DNA from: Armatimonadota bacterium | GTDB taxonomy: Bacteria > Armatimonadota > DTGP01 > JAKQQT01 | Direction: 5' to 3' | Assembly: GCA_036504095.1 (NCBI GenBank) | Contig: DASXVS010000043.1 | Location: 62,001-126,000 of the forward strand | DNA length: 64,000 bases | Part shown: positions 20,113-25,979 of the stretch, piece after piece | Numbering within the stretch: the first letter of the stretch is position 1 | Layout of the letters: every line of letters begins with the position of its first letter | Translations under genes and position numbers: made by a program | The notes under the pieces: model-generated | Databases searched by the model: none | Seen by the model: the letters and a program-made list of their open reading frames with translations, nothing else | What the model was told of the DNA's origin: nothing

Positions 20113-20147
20113 TTGCCGAAGGCCCGGTCGTGTCACACAATGTGACA
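20113..20147 (+). promoter_or_regulatory. tgt promoter with overlapping 7-bp palindrome
   Basis: TTGCCG (20113-20118) and CACAAT (20136-20141) are 17 bp apart, and the -10 ends 5 nt before the tgt ATG. A perfect inverted repeat TGTCACA-N3-TGTGACA (20131-20147) covers the -10 and touches the start codon. A bound regulator would block both polymerase and start, so the palindrome looks like a repressor operator. There is no ribosome binding site, so the mRNA is probably leaderless. Confidence 0.5.
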
Positions 20148-21277
20148 TGCCATTCTCCTTTTCCATCACCAAACAGGATACCAAGTGCCGGGCGCGGACC
20201 GGGGTTCTGGACATCGGTCGCGGGCCGATGCCCACGCCGCTGTTCATGCCGGTCGGCACGCGTGGGACCGTGAAGGCGATGACTCAGGGCGACCTGGAGG
20301 CCATCGGCTTTCCGATCATCCTGGGCAACACCTACCACCTGGCTACACGGCCCGGCCCCGATTACATCGAGAGCGCCGGCGGTCTGCACAGGTTCATTTC
20401 ATGGAACGGCGGCATTCTCACGGACAGCGGCGGGTATCAGGTCTTTTCCCTCGCGCACCTGCGCAAGATTTCGGACGCAGGCGTGGATTTCCGCAGCACG
20501 GTGGACGGCGCGAAGATGCACTTCGACCCCGAGACGGTGATGGATATCCAGCGCAAAATCGGCGCGGATATCATCATGGCGTTCGATGAATGCCCGCCTC
20601 ACCCCGCAACGAATGAGGAAACGCGCATCGCCACGGAACGGACGCATCGCTGGGCGGTCCGTTGTGTGGACCATTGGCGCAACGAAGGGCGGCCGGACGT
20701 GCAGAACCTGTTCCCGATCGTCCAGGGCGGCGTTTACGAGGACCTGCGGCGGGAGTCGGCGGAGTTCATCGGCGCGCTGGACACGCCGGGCGTAGCCGTT
20801 GGCGGCGTCAGCGTCGGAGAACCAAGCGAGGAGATGCTGCTCGCCGAGGAGCGCACCGTTCCCTATCTCCCGCCGCACAAACCGCGATACCTCATGGGGC
20901 TGGGGCAGCCTGAGGACATCCTGGAGGCCGTGGAACGCGGATTCGATATGTTCGACTGCGTGCTGCCGACCCGTTGCGGGCGAAATGGAACGGCCTACAC
21001 GTCGGTTGGGAGGCTGAACCTGAAGGGCTCCAAATACGCCGAGGACTACACGCCGCTCGACGAGAAGTGCTCGTGCCCGGTCTGCGCGCGATATTCCATG
21101 GCCTACATTCGGCACCTGGTACGCAGCAATGAGATGCTCGGTTCGCAACTTCTGACGTACCACAACCTGCATTTCTACCACAACCTGATGGCCGAGATCC
21201 GCGCCGCGATTGCCGAGAGCCGGTTCGCCGAGTATAAGCGGAACGCGCTGGCCAATCTCCTCCTCCGTGCGAAGTGA
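20147..21277 (+). CDS. tgt: tRNA-guanine transglycosylase
   Basis: Exchanges guanine-34 for preQ1 in queuosine tRNAs. The 376-residue product has DSGGYQVFSL, the nucleophile-region motif FDCVLPTR (Asp270), and the zinc site CSCPVC (Cys308, 310, 313) with a downstream His in YHNLHFYH. Length is normal. No queA or preQ1 genes are in the window. It lies directly upstream of the SecD-like lipoprotein and secDF; in many bacteria tgt is followed by yajC and secD, so the order is conserved apart from yajC. Confidence 0.96.
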   Translation: MPFSFSITKQDTKCRARTGVLDIGRGPMPTPLFMPVGTRGTVKAMTQGDLEAIGFPIILGNTYHLATRPGPDYIESAGGLHRFISWNGGILTDSGGYQVFSLAHLRKISDAGVDFRSTVDGAKMHFDPETVMDIQRKIGADIIMAFDECPPHPATNEETRIATERTHRWAVRCVDHWRNEGRPDVQNLFPIVQGGVYEDLRRESAEFIGALDTPGVAVGGVSVGEPSEEMLLAEERTVPYLPPHKPRYLMGLGQPEDILEAVERGFDMFDCVLPTRCGRNGTAYTSVGRLNLKGSKYAEDYTPLDEKCSCPVCARYSMAYIRHLVRSNEMLGSQLLTYHNLHFYHNLMAEIRAAIAESRFAEYKRNALANLLLRAK

Positions 21278-21350
21278 CCTTCGCCCCGGCGCGTACTCGC
21301 CGTTCGCCATTCGGGCATGCCCGTTACTACCATGCCGGCAGGGGATAGTG

Positions 21351-23108
21351 ATGCGTCATGCGGGTCTAATATTGTTGCCGGCGCTGCTTCTGATGGGCTG
21401 CGGGCGGAACAAGGTCGGCGCGAACGCCAACAGTGGCGGCGTCGAAGGCCAGCTACTGCTCTCCGCCCCTTACCGACTCCCCCTCCCGGAAAGCGTACGG
21501 CTTTCCGCGGCGCAGAAACTCCAGCGGACGCTCATCGAAAAAGGGTGGCCGGACGTTGAACTGGAAGCGTCGGCCACATCGCAGATCGCGCTGCGCATTC
21601 CGGTGGCGCCAGGTCCACGAGCGGATAAGGCGGTCAGTGACCTTCAATCGCTCCAAACGGTTCCCCCGATCCAGATGATACCGCTCACCAATGTCTGCTT
21701 TCGTTCGCCGGATGGCGTTGTGGGGCCGCTCTTCGCCCCGATTGAGTACATCGGAGGGCTGCGGTTTCGCGAGATGTCTACAGGCCGCCCGATTGACGTC
21801 GGCGAGGCAGTCGGTAGTACGTCGGGGTTCAACGCGTTCGCATCCTTCCAGATCACCGGGGCGGACATTCTCCCTGGAAGCGTAACCGGGCCTTCTCCCG
21901 AGCATGATGGATCCCGCGTCGTCACGTTCCACACCCGCACGGGCCACGTTCAGGACTGGCTGGTCGCATCGAGGACATTGCAGGCGCTGCTGATCGACGG
22001 GAAGATCGCGGCCGTTTTGAGCCCTCGCGGTGCAGAAGCGCAGGGCGCCGGCCGGCTGACGGGGTCCATGGCGGTGCAACCTGGCGGCGATGACTCGGCG
22101 GTTGCGGTGCTGAATCTGCCCCGGGCCGGAAGGGCGCCGAAAGCTGAAGACATCTCCCTGGGTCTCAGCCGGGGGGCCGTGCCGCCGCCGCCTGTGAACG
22201 TCAGGGTCTTGTACGCAGGTCCGAGGCCGTCCGGCGGGACGGGGCCTTCCCAGGGACGCTGGGGCCAGCGCCGCGGCCGCTGGGCGCAAATTGATTACAC
22301 TTTGCCCGATCGCTTTGATGGGAAGCCCGTGACGCCGGAGCTGTGCGCTCAGACGTTGAGCGCTCTTCAGGAGAGGGCGCGGGCAGCGGGCGTAGAGTCC
22401 CGCTTCGAGGCGACTGGAACGAAACGGATCACCGGGTGGGTTCGGATATTCCGCGGGCCTCGACGCACGCCGGGGACGACTTCGTACTCGCGGCTGATTC
22501 AGCGCGCCGAATGGGCCGTATTGCGCATGCGGCCCCGCGGCGAAGAGGATGGGGTCTGGACGCCGGCGTTCGAGGAAGGTTGGGTTGTCTGGCGCCGTCC
22601 GGGATCGGCCGAAACGAAGCGGACCTGTCGTGTGGAAAACCTGGCCCGGTATCTCCGCGCCGATCCTGACAATGTCCTCATCACGGCGGAGGATGCAGGG
22701 CCGGCAAGCGCCGCTTCGGACACCGGCGGTGGACGTGAAGGCAATTTGGCGAGAGTGACCGTCGCGTTGAAGCCCGCCGCCGCCGGACGCTGGAAATCAC
22801 TCTTTGCGAGGAGCCCAAGCGCAATCGCCGCCCTTTTTGTCGATGGCGTACTGATTTCGCGGTTCAGGTTGGGGGACCGGCCGCTGGCCGGCGACACAGT
22901 CTCGGTTCTGGAGAGCCGTCTGCTGCCTCTGTACGGCGGCGCCGCTCCTTCGGGGATCGAGATCTCGGAAGTGGACGCGCAGGCGCTGGCAGGCCTTCTG
23001 AACCTGCCGCCGATCAGGCTCAACTTTACGGACACTACCTATCGGATGGTGGACCGGGACGTTCAATCGTCCTCCGCCGGCTTCGCCGGACCCGCCGGAC
23101 CGAGATAA
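21351..23108 (+). CDS. Lipoprotein with two SecD-like periplasmic domains (candidate new export factor)
   Basis: The 585-residue product starts with a lipoprotein signal peptide ending LLLMGC (lipid Cys17). The N-terminal half has a segment FQITGADILPGSV followed by VTFHTRTGHVQDWL and LLIDGKIAAVLSP. These match in order the SecD head-domain blocks IIVTGSDLKP, MEFNDKGAKKFADY and VVLNGQIQQAPRI of the neighbouring SecDF. The C-terminal half repeats the pattern more weakly (NVLITAEDAGP, TVALKPAAAGRWKSLF, ALFVDGVLISRF). There are no membrane helices after the signal. I infer a duplicated, channel-free SecD P1-like lipoprotein. The ATG at 21351 gives a proper signal peptide; the longer in-frame start does not. 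Confidence 0.65.
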   Translation: MRHAGLILLPALLLMGCGRNKVGANANSGGVEGQLLLSAPYRLPLPESVRLSAAQKLQRTLIEKGWPDVELEASATSQIALRIPVAPGPRADKAVSDLQSLQTVPPIQMIPLTNVCFRSPDGVVGPLFAPIEYIGGLRFREMSTGRPIDVGEAVGSTSGFNAFASFQITGADILPGSVTGPSPEHDGSRVVTFHTRTGHVQDWLVASRTLQALLIDGKIAAVLSPRGAEAQGAGRLTGSMAVQPGGDDSAVAVLNLPRAGRAPKAEDISLGLSRGAVPPPPVNVRVLYAGPRPSGGTGPSQGRWGQRRGRWAQIDYTLPDRFDGKPVTPELCAQTLSALQERARAAGVESRFEATGTKRITGWVRIFRGPRRTPGTTSYSRLIQRAEWAVLRMRPRGEEDGVWTPAFEEGWVVWRRPGSAETKRTCRVENLARYLRADPDNVLITAEDAGPASAASDTGGGREGNLARVTVALKPAAAGRWKSLFARSPSAIAALFVDGVLISRFRLGDRPLAGDTVSVLESRLLPLYGGAAPSGIEISEVDAQALAGLLNLPPIRLNFTDTTYRMVDRDVQSSSAGFAGPAGPR

Positions 23109-23227
23109 ACACGGCGGAGCGTATGGCCAATGCAACTCGCGCGGCGTAATCGCCCGGCAGCGGTGATCGCCGCCACATTATTATCAGGCGCGCATGACAC
23201 GGCGGATTTGATTTGGCCCCGCCCGCG

Positions 23228-23236
23228 TGGTAAAAT
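23228..23236 (+). promoter_or_regulatory. Extended -10 promoter (TGG-TAAAAT) upstream of secDF
   Basis: TGGTAAAAT fits the extended -10 form, so transcription would start near 23243. That is immediately before a GC-rich hairpin with a T-run, and about 140 nt upstream of the secDF start. Confidence 0.5.
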
Positions 23237-23246
23237 GCAACCGTAC

Positions 23247-23281
23247 CCCGCCCCATAGCGCGACGCTACGGGCGGGTTTTT
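23247..23281 (+). terminator. Terminator-like hairpin in the secDF leader
   Basis: CCCGCCC (23247-23253) pairs with GGGCGGG (23270-23276), with an inner TAGC/GCTA stem and a 5-nt loop, followed by TTTTT. It can end transcription from the lipoprotein gene. It also lies at the extreme 5' end of the transcript from the adjacent -10 box, so it may act as an attenuator or a 5'-protective stem for secDF. Confidence 0.6.
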
Positions 23282-23381
23282 ATTGACGGGCAGAGCATTC
23301 GGCCGCCTGTCTTCGGCCGTCCATGATTTGGATGGTTACACTTCGTTACCCAACCCAATCGGTTGGAGGGGGTTTCCTTCC

Positions 23382-25979
23382 TTGAAATCAGTTTACCGCA
23401 ACACGCTTCTCCTTGTGCTGGCCTTGCTCGTTGGCTGTGCCGCCGTCAATTACTTGCCGGTGACGGATCCAAACGGCGTGCAGCGCAAAATGTTCCCGGT
23501 TAAGCAAGGCCTGGACCTCGCGGGAGGAACCCGCGCTGTGCTGCAGTTGCAGACGTCGCCCGAGGTTCCCGTCATCACGCCCGAGGTGCAGGCGCAGGTG
23601 CTGGGGATCATGCACAACCGCATCAACGCCATCGGCATCTCGGAGCCCCTGGTGCAGGCGAAGGGCAATGATCAGATCGTCATTGAAATGCCCCTCACGC
23701 CGGGAGCGAGTATCGAGCAGCAGCAGAAGGACCTCCAGGACCTGATCCAGGCGGCCAAACTGGAATTCATCTGGCTCAAGGACTGCCACGGCGTTGGCGA
23801 AGGCGCCGGCGGCAACCCCAGCGGCAGGTACATTTACGAAGGCGGAAACCGCATCGTTGACGCGGACACCGGCAAGCCGCTCACGGACGAAGAGGTACAG
23901 AAGAAAATCCTCTACGCCGATCCTGCCAACATCATCGTGACCGGCAGCGACCTCAAGCCGAATGGCGCGAAAGTGGACATCGAGTCCGGCGCCAACGGCC
24001 GCGGCGTCGTTACGCACATGGAGTTCAATGACAAGGGCGCGAAGAAGTTCGCGGATTACACGAGCGCAAACGTGGGCTCCCTCCTTGCCGTCGTCCTTAA
24101 CGGACAGATCCAGCAGGCCCCGCGCATCCAGAGTAAAATCACGGACGGTACGGCGATCATCGAAGGCGGATCCTCAACCACCGTCAAAGAGGCCCAGAAA
24201 CTGGCGGACCTGTTCAATGCAGGCGCATTGCCCGTTCCGCTCAAATCGCTCGCGTCATCCAGCGTTGAGGCCACCCTCGGCCAGGGCGCGGTGCAGCATG
24301 CCATCGTCGGCGGAATCATCGGCATCGCGCTGGTACTGGTGTTCATGCTGGCCTACTACTTCCTGCCGGGCGCCATCGCCGCCATCGCCCTCATCATCTA
24401 CGCGATCATCACATTCAGCCTGTTCCGCCTGCTTGGCGTCGTACTGACGCTGCCAGGCATCGCCGGCTTTATCCTCAGCGTGGGTATGGCCGTTGACGCT
24501 AACATCCTCATCTTCGAGCGAATGAAGGAAGAGATGCGCGCCGGCCGGACCCTGCACGCCGCCGTCGATGCGGGATTCGATCGAGCCTGGACTTCCATTC
24601 GCGACAGCAACATCTCAACACTCATCACGTGTCTGATCCTCTACATATTCGGCACCGGTCCGATCAGAGGCTTTGCCTTCGTGCTTTCCCTCGGTGTGAT
24701 CGTGTCGCTGTTCACCGCCATCACCGTCAGCCGCGCTCTTCTGCACGTCCTGGTCAATCAGGAATGGAGCCACGACCCGAAATACTTCCGCGTGGGCGAA
24801 AAGCAGTTCGGTTGGGGCCAGAAGGCGGAGCGCCAGCACTGGGATGTGATGGGCAAGATGAACCTGTGGTTCACCATCAGCGCCATCCTCATCCTCGTCG
24901 GCTGGGGATTCAACGCCGCCCACTATTTCAAGGACGGCTCACTCGTACGCAAGGGTATCGACTTCACCGGCGGCACGATGCTGACCTACTCGCTGCCGAA
25001 CGGGGTTACGGCTTCCGATGAAGACGTCAAGGCGGTCTTCGCGCAAAACGGCCTGAAGGAAAGCTCCGTTCAGCGAACGGTTGAACAGACCGGAGCGACC
25101 GCGGGGAAGAGCGTGGTCACCGTTCGCACGATCCAGTTGGACCCGCAGAAGGTCGCGTCGTTGTTCCAGGCGATGCAGACCAGGTTCGGCAATGAGAAGA
25201 CGAAGCAGTTGGTGCGGCAGGAGGCGGTCGATACCGTCGGACCGGTCATCAGCGCAGAACTCACGCGGCAGGCATTCATGGCGATCATCTTCGCGTGTTT
25301 GCTCATCGCGCTCTATCTGGGCGTCATGTTCGGCCAGTTCGGATTCCTCGACGGCCTGAAATACGGCTCGGCTGCGGTTATCGCCCTCTTCCACGACGTT
25401 CTCGTCATCTTTGGTTTCATGGGCCTGGCCGGCTATCTGTGGAACTGGGAAATGAGCTCGCTGTTTGTGACCGCCGCCCTGACCGTCATCGGCTTCAGCG
25501 TTCACGACACCATCGTCGTGTTTGACCGAATTCGCGAGAACATGAAGATCCACGGCAAGGAGATGTCGTTCAAGGATATCTCCAATGCCAGTATCGTCCA
25601 GACGCTTGGCCGGTCCATCAACACATCGGCGACCGTTGTGATCACCCTGGCCGCGCTCCTCATCTTCGGCACCCAGGGCAGCCTGGAGCTGAAGGTGTTC
25701 ACCGCGGTGCTCCTTGTGGGTATCATCTCGGGAACGTACTCCAGTATCTTCAACGCCACTCCGATCGTGGTCCTGATGGAGAAACGCCGCGACGCCGCCC
25801 GGCTTGCCGCGGCCGCGCAAACGCGACGCCCGAGCGCCGCCGACACGAAGTCGTTTGCGACACCCAAGGCCGCCGTGGCGACGCCCAGCACGCCGAAACC
25901 TGCCGCCGCCGATCCGGTCGGCGATGCGGAGAAGGCGAAAGCGGCCGGTGCAGCGAAGAAGACGAAACGCCGCTTCTAG
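23382..25979 (+). CDS. secDF: Fused protein translocase subunit SecDF
   Basis: Uses the proton gradient to pull proteins out of SecYEG. SecD and SecF are fused in one 865-residue chain. The SecD half has helix 1 (~6-24), GLDLAGGT, the periplasmic head with VTGSDLKP and VVLNGQIQQAPRI, and five helices (~325-490) with GMAVDANILIFERMKEE. The SecF half has KGIDFTGGTML and GFSVHDTIVVFDRIREN. The tail is Ala/Lys-rich. I chose the TTG at 23382: GGAGG lies about 9 nt upstream, and the protein then begins at the helix. The 33 extra codons back to 23283 look non-coding. Confidence 0.94.
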   Translation: MKSVYRNTLLLVLALLVGCAAVNYLPVTDPNGVQRKMFPVKQGLDLAGGTRAVLQLQTSPEVPVITPEVQAQVLGIMHNRINAIGISEPLVQAKGNDQIVIEMPLTPGASIEQQQKDLQDLIQAAKLEFIWLKDCHGVGEGAGGNPSGRYIYEGGNRIVDADTGKPLTDEEVQKKILYADPANIIVTGSDLKPNGAKVDIESGANGRGVVTHMEFNDKGAKKFADYTSANVGSLLAVVLNGQIQQAPRIQSKITDGTAIIEGGSSTTVKEAQKLADLFNAGALPVPLKSLASSSVEATLGQGAVQHAIVGGIIGIALVLVFMLAYYFLPGAIAAIALIIYAIITFSLFRLLGVVLTLPGIAGFILSVGMAVDANILIFERMKEEMRAGRTLHAAVDAGFDRAWTSIRDSNISTLITCLILYIFGTGPIRGFAFVLSLGVIVSLFTAITVSRALLHVLVNQEWSHDPKYFRVGEKQFGWGQKAERQHWDVMGKMNLWFTISAILILVGWGFNAAHYFKDGSLVRKGIDFTGGTMLTYSLPNGVTASDEDVKAVFAQNGLKESSVQRTVEQTGATAGKSVVTVRTIQLDPQKVASLFQAMQTRFGNEKTKQLVRQEAVDTVGPVISAELTRQAFMAIIFACLLIALYLGVMFGQFGFLDGLKYGSAAVIALFHDVLVIFGFMGLAGYLWNWEMSSLFVTAALTVIGFSVHDTIVVFDRIRENMKIHGKEMSFKDISNASIVQTLGRSINTSATVVITLAALLIFGTQGSLELKVFTAVLLVGIISGTYSSIFNATPIVVLMEKRRDAARLAAAAQTRRPSAADTKSFATPKAAVATPSTPKPAAADPVGDAEKAKAAGAAKKTKRRF

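Follow-up and report, generated by a model that had tools for sequence, protein, structure and literature searches.

The P1 domain of SecD is usually treated as a moving component of a motor, and the closest described system to the protein reported here is P1 of SecD/SecDF (PF21760, SecD_1st, and PF22599, SecDF_P1_head; Thermus SecDF structures 3aqp, 5xan and 5yhf, and isolated P1, 3aqo). PpiD (YfgM-PpiD), a periplasmic chaperone associated with the translocon that offers an analogy, is built of SurA/parvulin-type domains and a transmembrane helix. The P1 head is the substrate-binding site of SecD, and PpiD, a membrane-anchored chaperone close to P1, has been cross-linked near the head and may hand over chains (PMC7793623). 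PpiD is membrane-tethered and energy-independent and binds emerging chains beside SecD P1 (PMC7793623, PMC9643414). The secretion monitors VemP, ApdA and ApdP are lineage-specific exported products encoded just upstream of secDF, and monitors of this kind have a distribution that is both wide and patchy (PMC10987492, PMC7897499). In many bacteria, the position between tgt and secD is held by yajC (PF02699).

Here, we analysed a window of 64,000 nt, the whole stretch examined, from the Armatimonadota contig DASXVS010000043.1, in which an open reading frame for a predicted lipoprotein (P0001) lies between tgt and secDF. The features of the locus are as follows.

20147 to 21277, + strand: tgt (queuine tRNA-ribosyltransferase, Pfam PF01702), the upstream neighbour
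21340 to 21344, + strand: Shine-Dalgarno AGGGG of the lipoprotein gene, 6 nt 5′ of the ATG, read from the sequence
21351 to 23108, + strand: lipoprotein gene (P0001), 585 aa, almost certainly a tandem SecD P1 protein; ATG at 21351, stop at 23108
21351 to 21401, + strand: predicted signal peptide and lipobox LLMG/C, with Cys17 at 21399 to 21401, read from the sequence
21435 to 22220, + strand: P1 copy 1 (about residues 29 to 290), with base, head and base return; boundaries approximate
22284 to 23060, + strand: P1 copy 2 (about residues 312 to 570), from BLASTP, hhalign and AF2/Foldseek
23208 to 23236, + strand: TTGATT-17-TAAAAT, a sigma-70-like promoter in the gap that separates the lipoprotein gene from secDF
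23247 to 23281, + strand: G+C-rich hairpin with a T5 run after it, resembling a terminator or attenuator, 5′ of secDF
23382 to 25979, + strand: secDF, probable TTG start, the next gene downstream, to which both P1 copies are most closely related

Downstream of the lipoprotein gene lie secDF, recJ and a gene which we take, from reading its sequence, to be of the relA/spoT type; these and tgt upstream are all on the + strand. The predicted lipoprotein signal (MRHAGLILLPALLLMG followed by the cysteine) fits the lipobox consensus, as judged by eye. A stop-free run of 585 codons has a chance probability of about 1e-7 at the local G+C, and none of the approximately 16 stops expected had the codons been randomised is present. 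No segment resembling a transmembrane helix was found past the signal peptide; the best 19-residue hydropathy window scored 1.58 and falls within a P1 head, compared with 116 windows above 1.6 in SecDF. The SecD_SecF_C membrane domain and the SecD transmembrane helices are absent by Pfam and hydropathy, in agreement with the preliminary description of this DNA, which had called the protein channel-free. The GLDLxGG motif (Sec_GG) is missing from both halves, of which half 1 keeps just GG.

The preliminary description had also proposed that a lipobox is followed by two regions whose ordered blocks resemble the SecD head. The lipobox and the blocks (TGADILP, VTFHTRTG and LLIDGKIAAV in the first region; LITAEDAGP, VALKPAAAGRW and LFVDGVLISRF in the second) are present in that order, and the likeness proved to be beyond chance and larger than described, since it includes the P1 base. 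BLASTP against the adjacent SecDF aligned residues 71-280 of the lipoprotein with P1 residues 124-319 (E 5e-7) and residues 327-499 with P1 residues 98-274 (E 2e-6), so that each half gave one co-linear match. As negative controls, the best of 150 other ORFs of the window reached an E of 0.003 and the best of 500 shuffled lipoprotein sequences 0.017. With hhalign, half 1 scored 46.6 and half 2 41.8 against a SecD P1 profile, compared with 19.4 for the best shuffle and 25.0 for the best other ORF; with a broader P1 profile, the halves scored 50.2 and 58.2, and unrelated (non-P1) ORFs upstream of secD genes scored at most 24.0. In half 1, GGVEGQLLLSA...LQRTLIEKG...ATSQIALRIPV aligns with GGTRAVLQLQT...MHNRINAIG...GNDQIVIEMPL of SecDF, and close to its end GAVPPPPV aligns with GALPVPLK; in half 2, VTPELCAQTLSALQERARAAGV aligns with ITPEVQAQVLGIMHNRINAIGI of SecDF. 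Since the BLASTP, hhalign and broader-profile matches extend across both elements, each half, as judged from its sequence, spans a P1 base and head.

The evidence for P1 homology comes from BLAST, hhalign and structure and not from PF22599, whose gathering cut-off neither the whole protein nor its halves reach. No Pfam or NCBIfam family matched the lipoprotein, a local P1 HMM gave HMMER scores near zero, and a sequence search of the PDB returned no match; the protein is thus far in sequence from the Pfam P1 family. BLAST and profile-profile comparisons with controls were chosen because the HMMER scores with the local P1 HMM were near zero. The lipoprotein has diverged from SecD P1 down to about 25% identity, and similarity between its two halves was not detectable.

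Each half was modelled with AlphaFold2; the alignment included 44 further sequences, the majority of them SecD P1. Half 1 was modelled with a mean pLDDT of 68 and a pTM of 0.56, and half 2 with 70 and 0.59, the last ~57 residues being of low confidence. When the models were compared with the PDB by Foldseek, all nine matches at E<0.001 were SecDF entries for each half (5xan, 3aqo, 3aqp and 5yhf among them), with best E values of 1.9e-6 for half 1 and 5.6e-10 for half 2. The TM-scores are low (0.27-0.43), in part because the P1 head and base move relative to each other. The outcome agrees with the SecD-like fold foreseen in the preliminary description, as compatibility with that fold and no independent proof of it, because SecD sequences sat in the alignment. 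Taken together, these results show that the protein consists, almost certainly, of two tandem SecD P1-like domains without the SecD membrane part. Like SecD/SecDF, it has the base and head elements in the same order, co-linear sequence similarity, a structure match and a place in the same neighbourhood; unlike SecD/SecDF, it is a lipoprotein that lacks TM1-TM6, the SecF part and GLDLxGG, carries a lipid anchor, has P1 twice and lies below Pfam detection.

Among 105 SecD P1 sequences, the best match of both halves was the window's own SecDF (7e-7 and 1e-6), and the next-best matches of half 2 came from the related genomes G251 and G001. This ranking was used instead of a tree because the tree placement of the halves, two very long branches that meet, is unreliable. 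An origin of the lipoprotein from the lineage's own SecD is very probable.

The lipoprotein is not conserved. A search in 60 relatives matched SecD only, and no relative turned up when 84,980 species genomes were scanned; with no intact orthologue among the genomes searched, a conserved surface cannot be read from the protein. Genome G001, of the same family, has tgt next to secDF, 135 bp apart with nothing between them. The closest known relative, contig JANYBJ010000209.1 of genome G251 (L208), encodes a Tgt 92% and a SecDF 87.5% identical to those of the window; there, a second contig scan with SecD P1 as query located a remnant of 57 codons between tgt and secDF, corresponding to residues 509-565 of the lipoprotein at about 60% identity. 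No other part or copy of the gene was found in that genome. Because the remnant persists, the gene predates the split of the two species and was lost in one of them. Between the lipoprotein gene and the remnant, dN is 0.28 and dS about 2.0 (dN/dS ~0.14), which suggests that the gene was under constraint until its recent loss, in a small sample of 55 codons with dS near saturation. Since all but the remnant is deleted in L208 and the gene is absent from G001, any role of the lipoprotein is dispensable. The gene is an optional, short-lived addition and not a core Sec component, and on its own it is of modest importance, being dispensable and lineage-specific. A palindromic element of ~140 bp with an outer inverted repeat (ACTGTTCAGTT/AACTGAACAG) lies beside the remnant (L208:873-1011) and has a weak match at G000:C40:137721; it is single-copy in its own genome and was not called a mobile element at the deletion.

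The preliminary description had placed the gene in the slot often held by yajC. It does lie between tgt and secDF, and this part of the comparison stands; the idea of a functional stand-in fails, since YajC (PF02699) was undetected in the window's genome and in its relatives and the slot is empty in G001. The lipoprotein has no PF02699 match and no similarity to YajC, from which it differs in size and topology, and a role as YajC substitute was rejected.

The stop codon of the lipoprotein gene lies 273 bp upstream of secDF. The true secDF start is probably TTG 23382 and not 23283, because a Shine-Dalgarno sequence (GGAGGGGG, 23365-23372) precedes it by 9 nt and L208 has an identical start region. 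The promoter TTGATT-17-TAAAAT and the secDF leader are kept in L208, in which the lipoprotein gene itself is lost, and the hairpin is also present there with a weaker T run. Two promoter-like sites were found in the scanned region compared with 1.4 expected by chance. It is likely that secDF has its own promoter, because the site is conserved in L208, although one match is expected by chance. Co-expression of the lipoprotein gene with secDF is doubtful, since the promoter and hairpin intervene. The whole secDF leader gave a fold z of -2.66, and an Rfam search of the intergenic leader returned just two sub-threshold matches, both outside the leader. Three further hairpins follow the terminator-like one in the leader (23208-23381); the Shine-Dalgarno sequence is possibly masked, and the leader may regulate secDF.

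To place the lipoprotein among other P1 proteins, at least two P1-head matches (PF22599) were counted in 104 of 251 Armatimonadota genomes, compared with 3 of 61 in a Chloroflexota sample. In the 52 multi-P1 genomes examined in detail, the majority of extra matches belong to 200-480 aa ORFs that lack the SecD membrane part. These encode lipoproteins, secreted proteins or proteins with a single anchor and carry one P1, or one P1 head, apiece; second or contig-split SecDs (G067, G161) account for a few of the extra copies. Most well-preserved P1-only proteins have their closest SecD in their own genome or in near relatives. A quick tree calls for nine or more changes from one type to the other, SecD or P1-only; the P1-only protein of G083 may stem from outside its clade, and two P1-only births lie near secDF. 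These comparisons indicate that P1-only proteins arose repeatedly, in nine or more events, from the SecD of the lineage concerned. In four pairs of related P1-only genes, dN and dS were 0.19/0.75, 0.21/0.41, 0.26/1.49 and 0.25/0.71; these genes evolve faster than their SecDs, yet dN stays below dS, and as a class the proteins are therefore probably functional. A search of plasmid records with the G124 lipoprotein gave no annotated P1-only relative among the matches listed, the annotated ones being SecD.

The clearest case, a 283-aa lipoprotein of G124 (L085:2002-2850), has a single P1, lies 236 bp 5′ of secDF and shares 62% identity with the SecD P1 of its genome. Of the 98 genomes whose sequence upstream of secD could be read, a P1-like gene was found there in the window, G124 and G021 only, and most free P1 genes of the phylum are located away from secDF. 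Like the window's protein, the single-P1 proteins compared (that of G124, L037:3403-4236, L093, L095, L096 and L036) consist of a P1 freed from the membrane part, have a lipobox or N-terminal anchor and were apparently born from their own SecD; unlike it, they have one P1 each, are recognised by PF22599 and mostly lie away from secDF. No second tandem P1 protein was present among the extra P1 proteins of the phylum examined. We found no paper describing the single-P1 proteins, which are visible as domain matches only, and the literature search gave no described lipoprotein of tandem design, as the preliminary description had supposed. The lipoprotein thus adds a tandem form, so far undescribed, to the free-standing SecD P1 proteins.

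P1 regions also occur in fusions. L101 and L102 (G061:C1, at ~6.709 Mb and 1.969 Mb) are BlaR1/M56-type metalloprotease sensors of 1022 and 1072 aa whose extracytoplasmic part is a SecD P1-like region (profile positions ~85-236). In L103 (G020:C37:48071-48343, in a 452-aa ORF), an ECF-type sigma factor is followed by a transmembrane segment and a SecD P1 head, an arrangement that would be possible for an export-stress sensor. A P1 head also lies within what we take, from reading the sequences, to be an M56, LytR-CpsA-Psr and M23-type protein (L113, G155:C148) and a prenyltransferase-like repeat protein (L110, G010:C117).

The explanation that we tentatively prefer, somewhat short of an even chance, is that the tandem-P1 lipoprotein is a partial secDF duplicate that passively binds exported chains. 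A partial duplication of the neighbouring secDF would have given rise to the gene, followed by very fast divergence. The lipid anchor would most likely place the protein on the outer face of the membrane, where the two P1 units would engage unfolded segments of proteins just exported and keep them from sliding back or aggregating. No proton or sodium gradient would be coupled to this, and the protein would act near the translocon, similar to PpiD beside SecD. PpiD has no homology to the lipoprotein, and this is an analogy only. Passive binding is favoured because two lipid-tethered P1 units without a motor could presumably only bind and hold, and precedent is provided by the single-P1 lipoprotein upstream of secDF in G124 and the at least nine P1-only births. 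Client binding, drawn from the literature on the P1 head as the substrate-binding site and on PpiD near it, and cooperation with SecDF are both weakly suggested, and the chance of client binding falls somewhat below even. The accessory subunit tied to SecDF that the preliminary description envisaged is not supported: in the genomes searched the lipoprotein has no intact orthologue, it is reduced to a remnant in L208 and is absent from G001, and other free P1 proteins mostly lie away from secDF. Together these findings go most of the way to one of the refutations named in that description.

Several other roles were weighed against passive client binding. The P1 fold may have been retired from Sec, so that the lipoprotein binds another envelope partner or senses the envelope state. 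The fusions of P1 heads to BlaR1/M56 sensors, to an ECF sigma factor and within L113 and L110 show use of P1 outside SecD and make such repurposing plausible, and the drift of the lipoprotein to ~25% identity and the position of most free P1 genes fit it; however, the gene still adjoins secDF and has kept the base and head design twice, and we regard this reading as unlikely, if the nearest competitor. That the gene is decaying, a remainder of an earlier secD duplication without present function, is less probable again. Its fast evolution, the mere remnant in L208 and a third-position G+C of 0.73, compared with 0.77-0.82 in the neighbours, would agree with decay, but the ORF is intact with its ribosome-binding site, signal peptide and lipobox, the ~16 stops expected on randomisation are absent, and the low dN/dS in the 55-codon comparison with the remnant (dS near saturation) argues for past constraint. 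About as improbable, or slightly more so, is a regulatory decoy, in which the free P1 competes with SecD P1 for clients or SecYEG and damps SecDF. A motor part without its motor, encoded near secDF, would act in this way if its partners were identical, yet the lipoprotein differs from SecD P1 far more than a competitor would be expected to, and the gene is not maintained in relatives.

Since the gene lies upstream of secDF, a secretion monitor was also considered, in which C-terminal translation arrest controls secDF as with VemP, ApdA and ApdP. The product is predicted to be exported, is encoded directly upstream of secDF, is lineage-specific and fast evolving, and precedes a structured secDF leader, and its C-terminus (GFAGPAGPR*) weakly recalls the R-A-G-P/RAPP type of arrest motif. 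However, it has no R/Q/H-A/G-P-P motif and no RAPP/RGPP-type motif (PMC10987492), and no clear match to arrest motifs of the known types; 273 nt with a conserved, likely separate promoter lie between the stop codon and secDF; the leader hairpins are too distant from the stop codon for direct opening by a stalled ribosome; and the leader is retained in L208, where the gene is lost. Two folded P1 domains, in place of a short arrest peptide, would also go unexplained, and we consider this the least probable reading by far. With passive client binding still preferred for the window's protein, a wider reading, which we hold to be doubtful, is that the phylum repeatedly redeploys SecD P1 as free or doubled lipoproteins and sensor domains that would act as unpowered helpers sensing or holding exported chains, the window's protein being the most extreme. 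The repeated birth of P1-only proteins from their own secD shows that P1 has a use apart from the motor, or can at any rate be tolerated there. These proteins are ready reagents for asking what P1 binds and whether a passive ratchet is possible, and the fusions to BlaR1-type sensors and to a sigma factor would allow tests of whether export load is linked to gene regulation.

Further P1 proteins were observed in the phylum. Single-anchor proteins of ~260-380 aa that carry a diverged P1 head appear to be family-wide in f8 (L087, L108, L109, L111, L119, L120), f13 (L106, L116, L122), f44 (L115, L124) and f24 (L100, L112, L117, L118); they are undescribed and possibly old. In G033, no SecDF was detected, and in G020, of the same genus, only P1-only or fused P1 matches were found, at a completeness of 98-99%; SecDF is present in the sister genomes G153, G161 and G177, and the case is either a real loss or an assembly gap. 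Between G046 and G135 (L036 and L091 vs L051 and L290), SecD P1 is 99.6% identical with zero synonymous changes, whereas the P1-only proteins are just 70% identical, which points to a recent transfer, a shared contig or a binning error.
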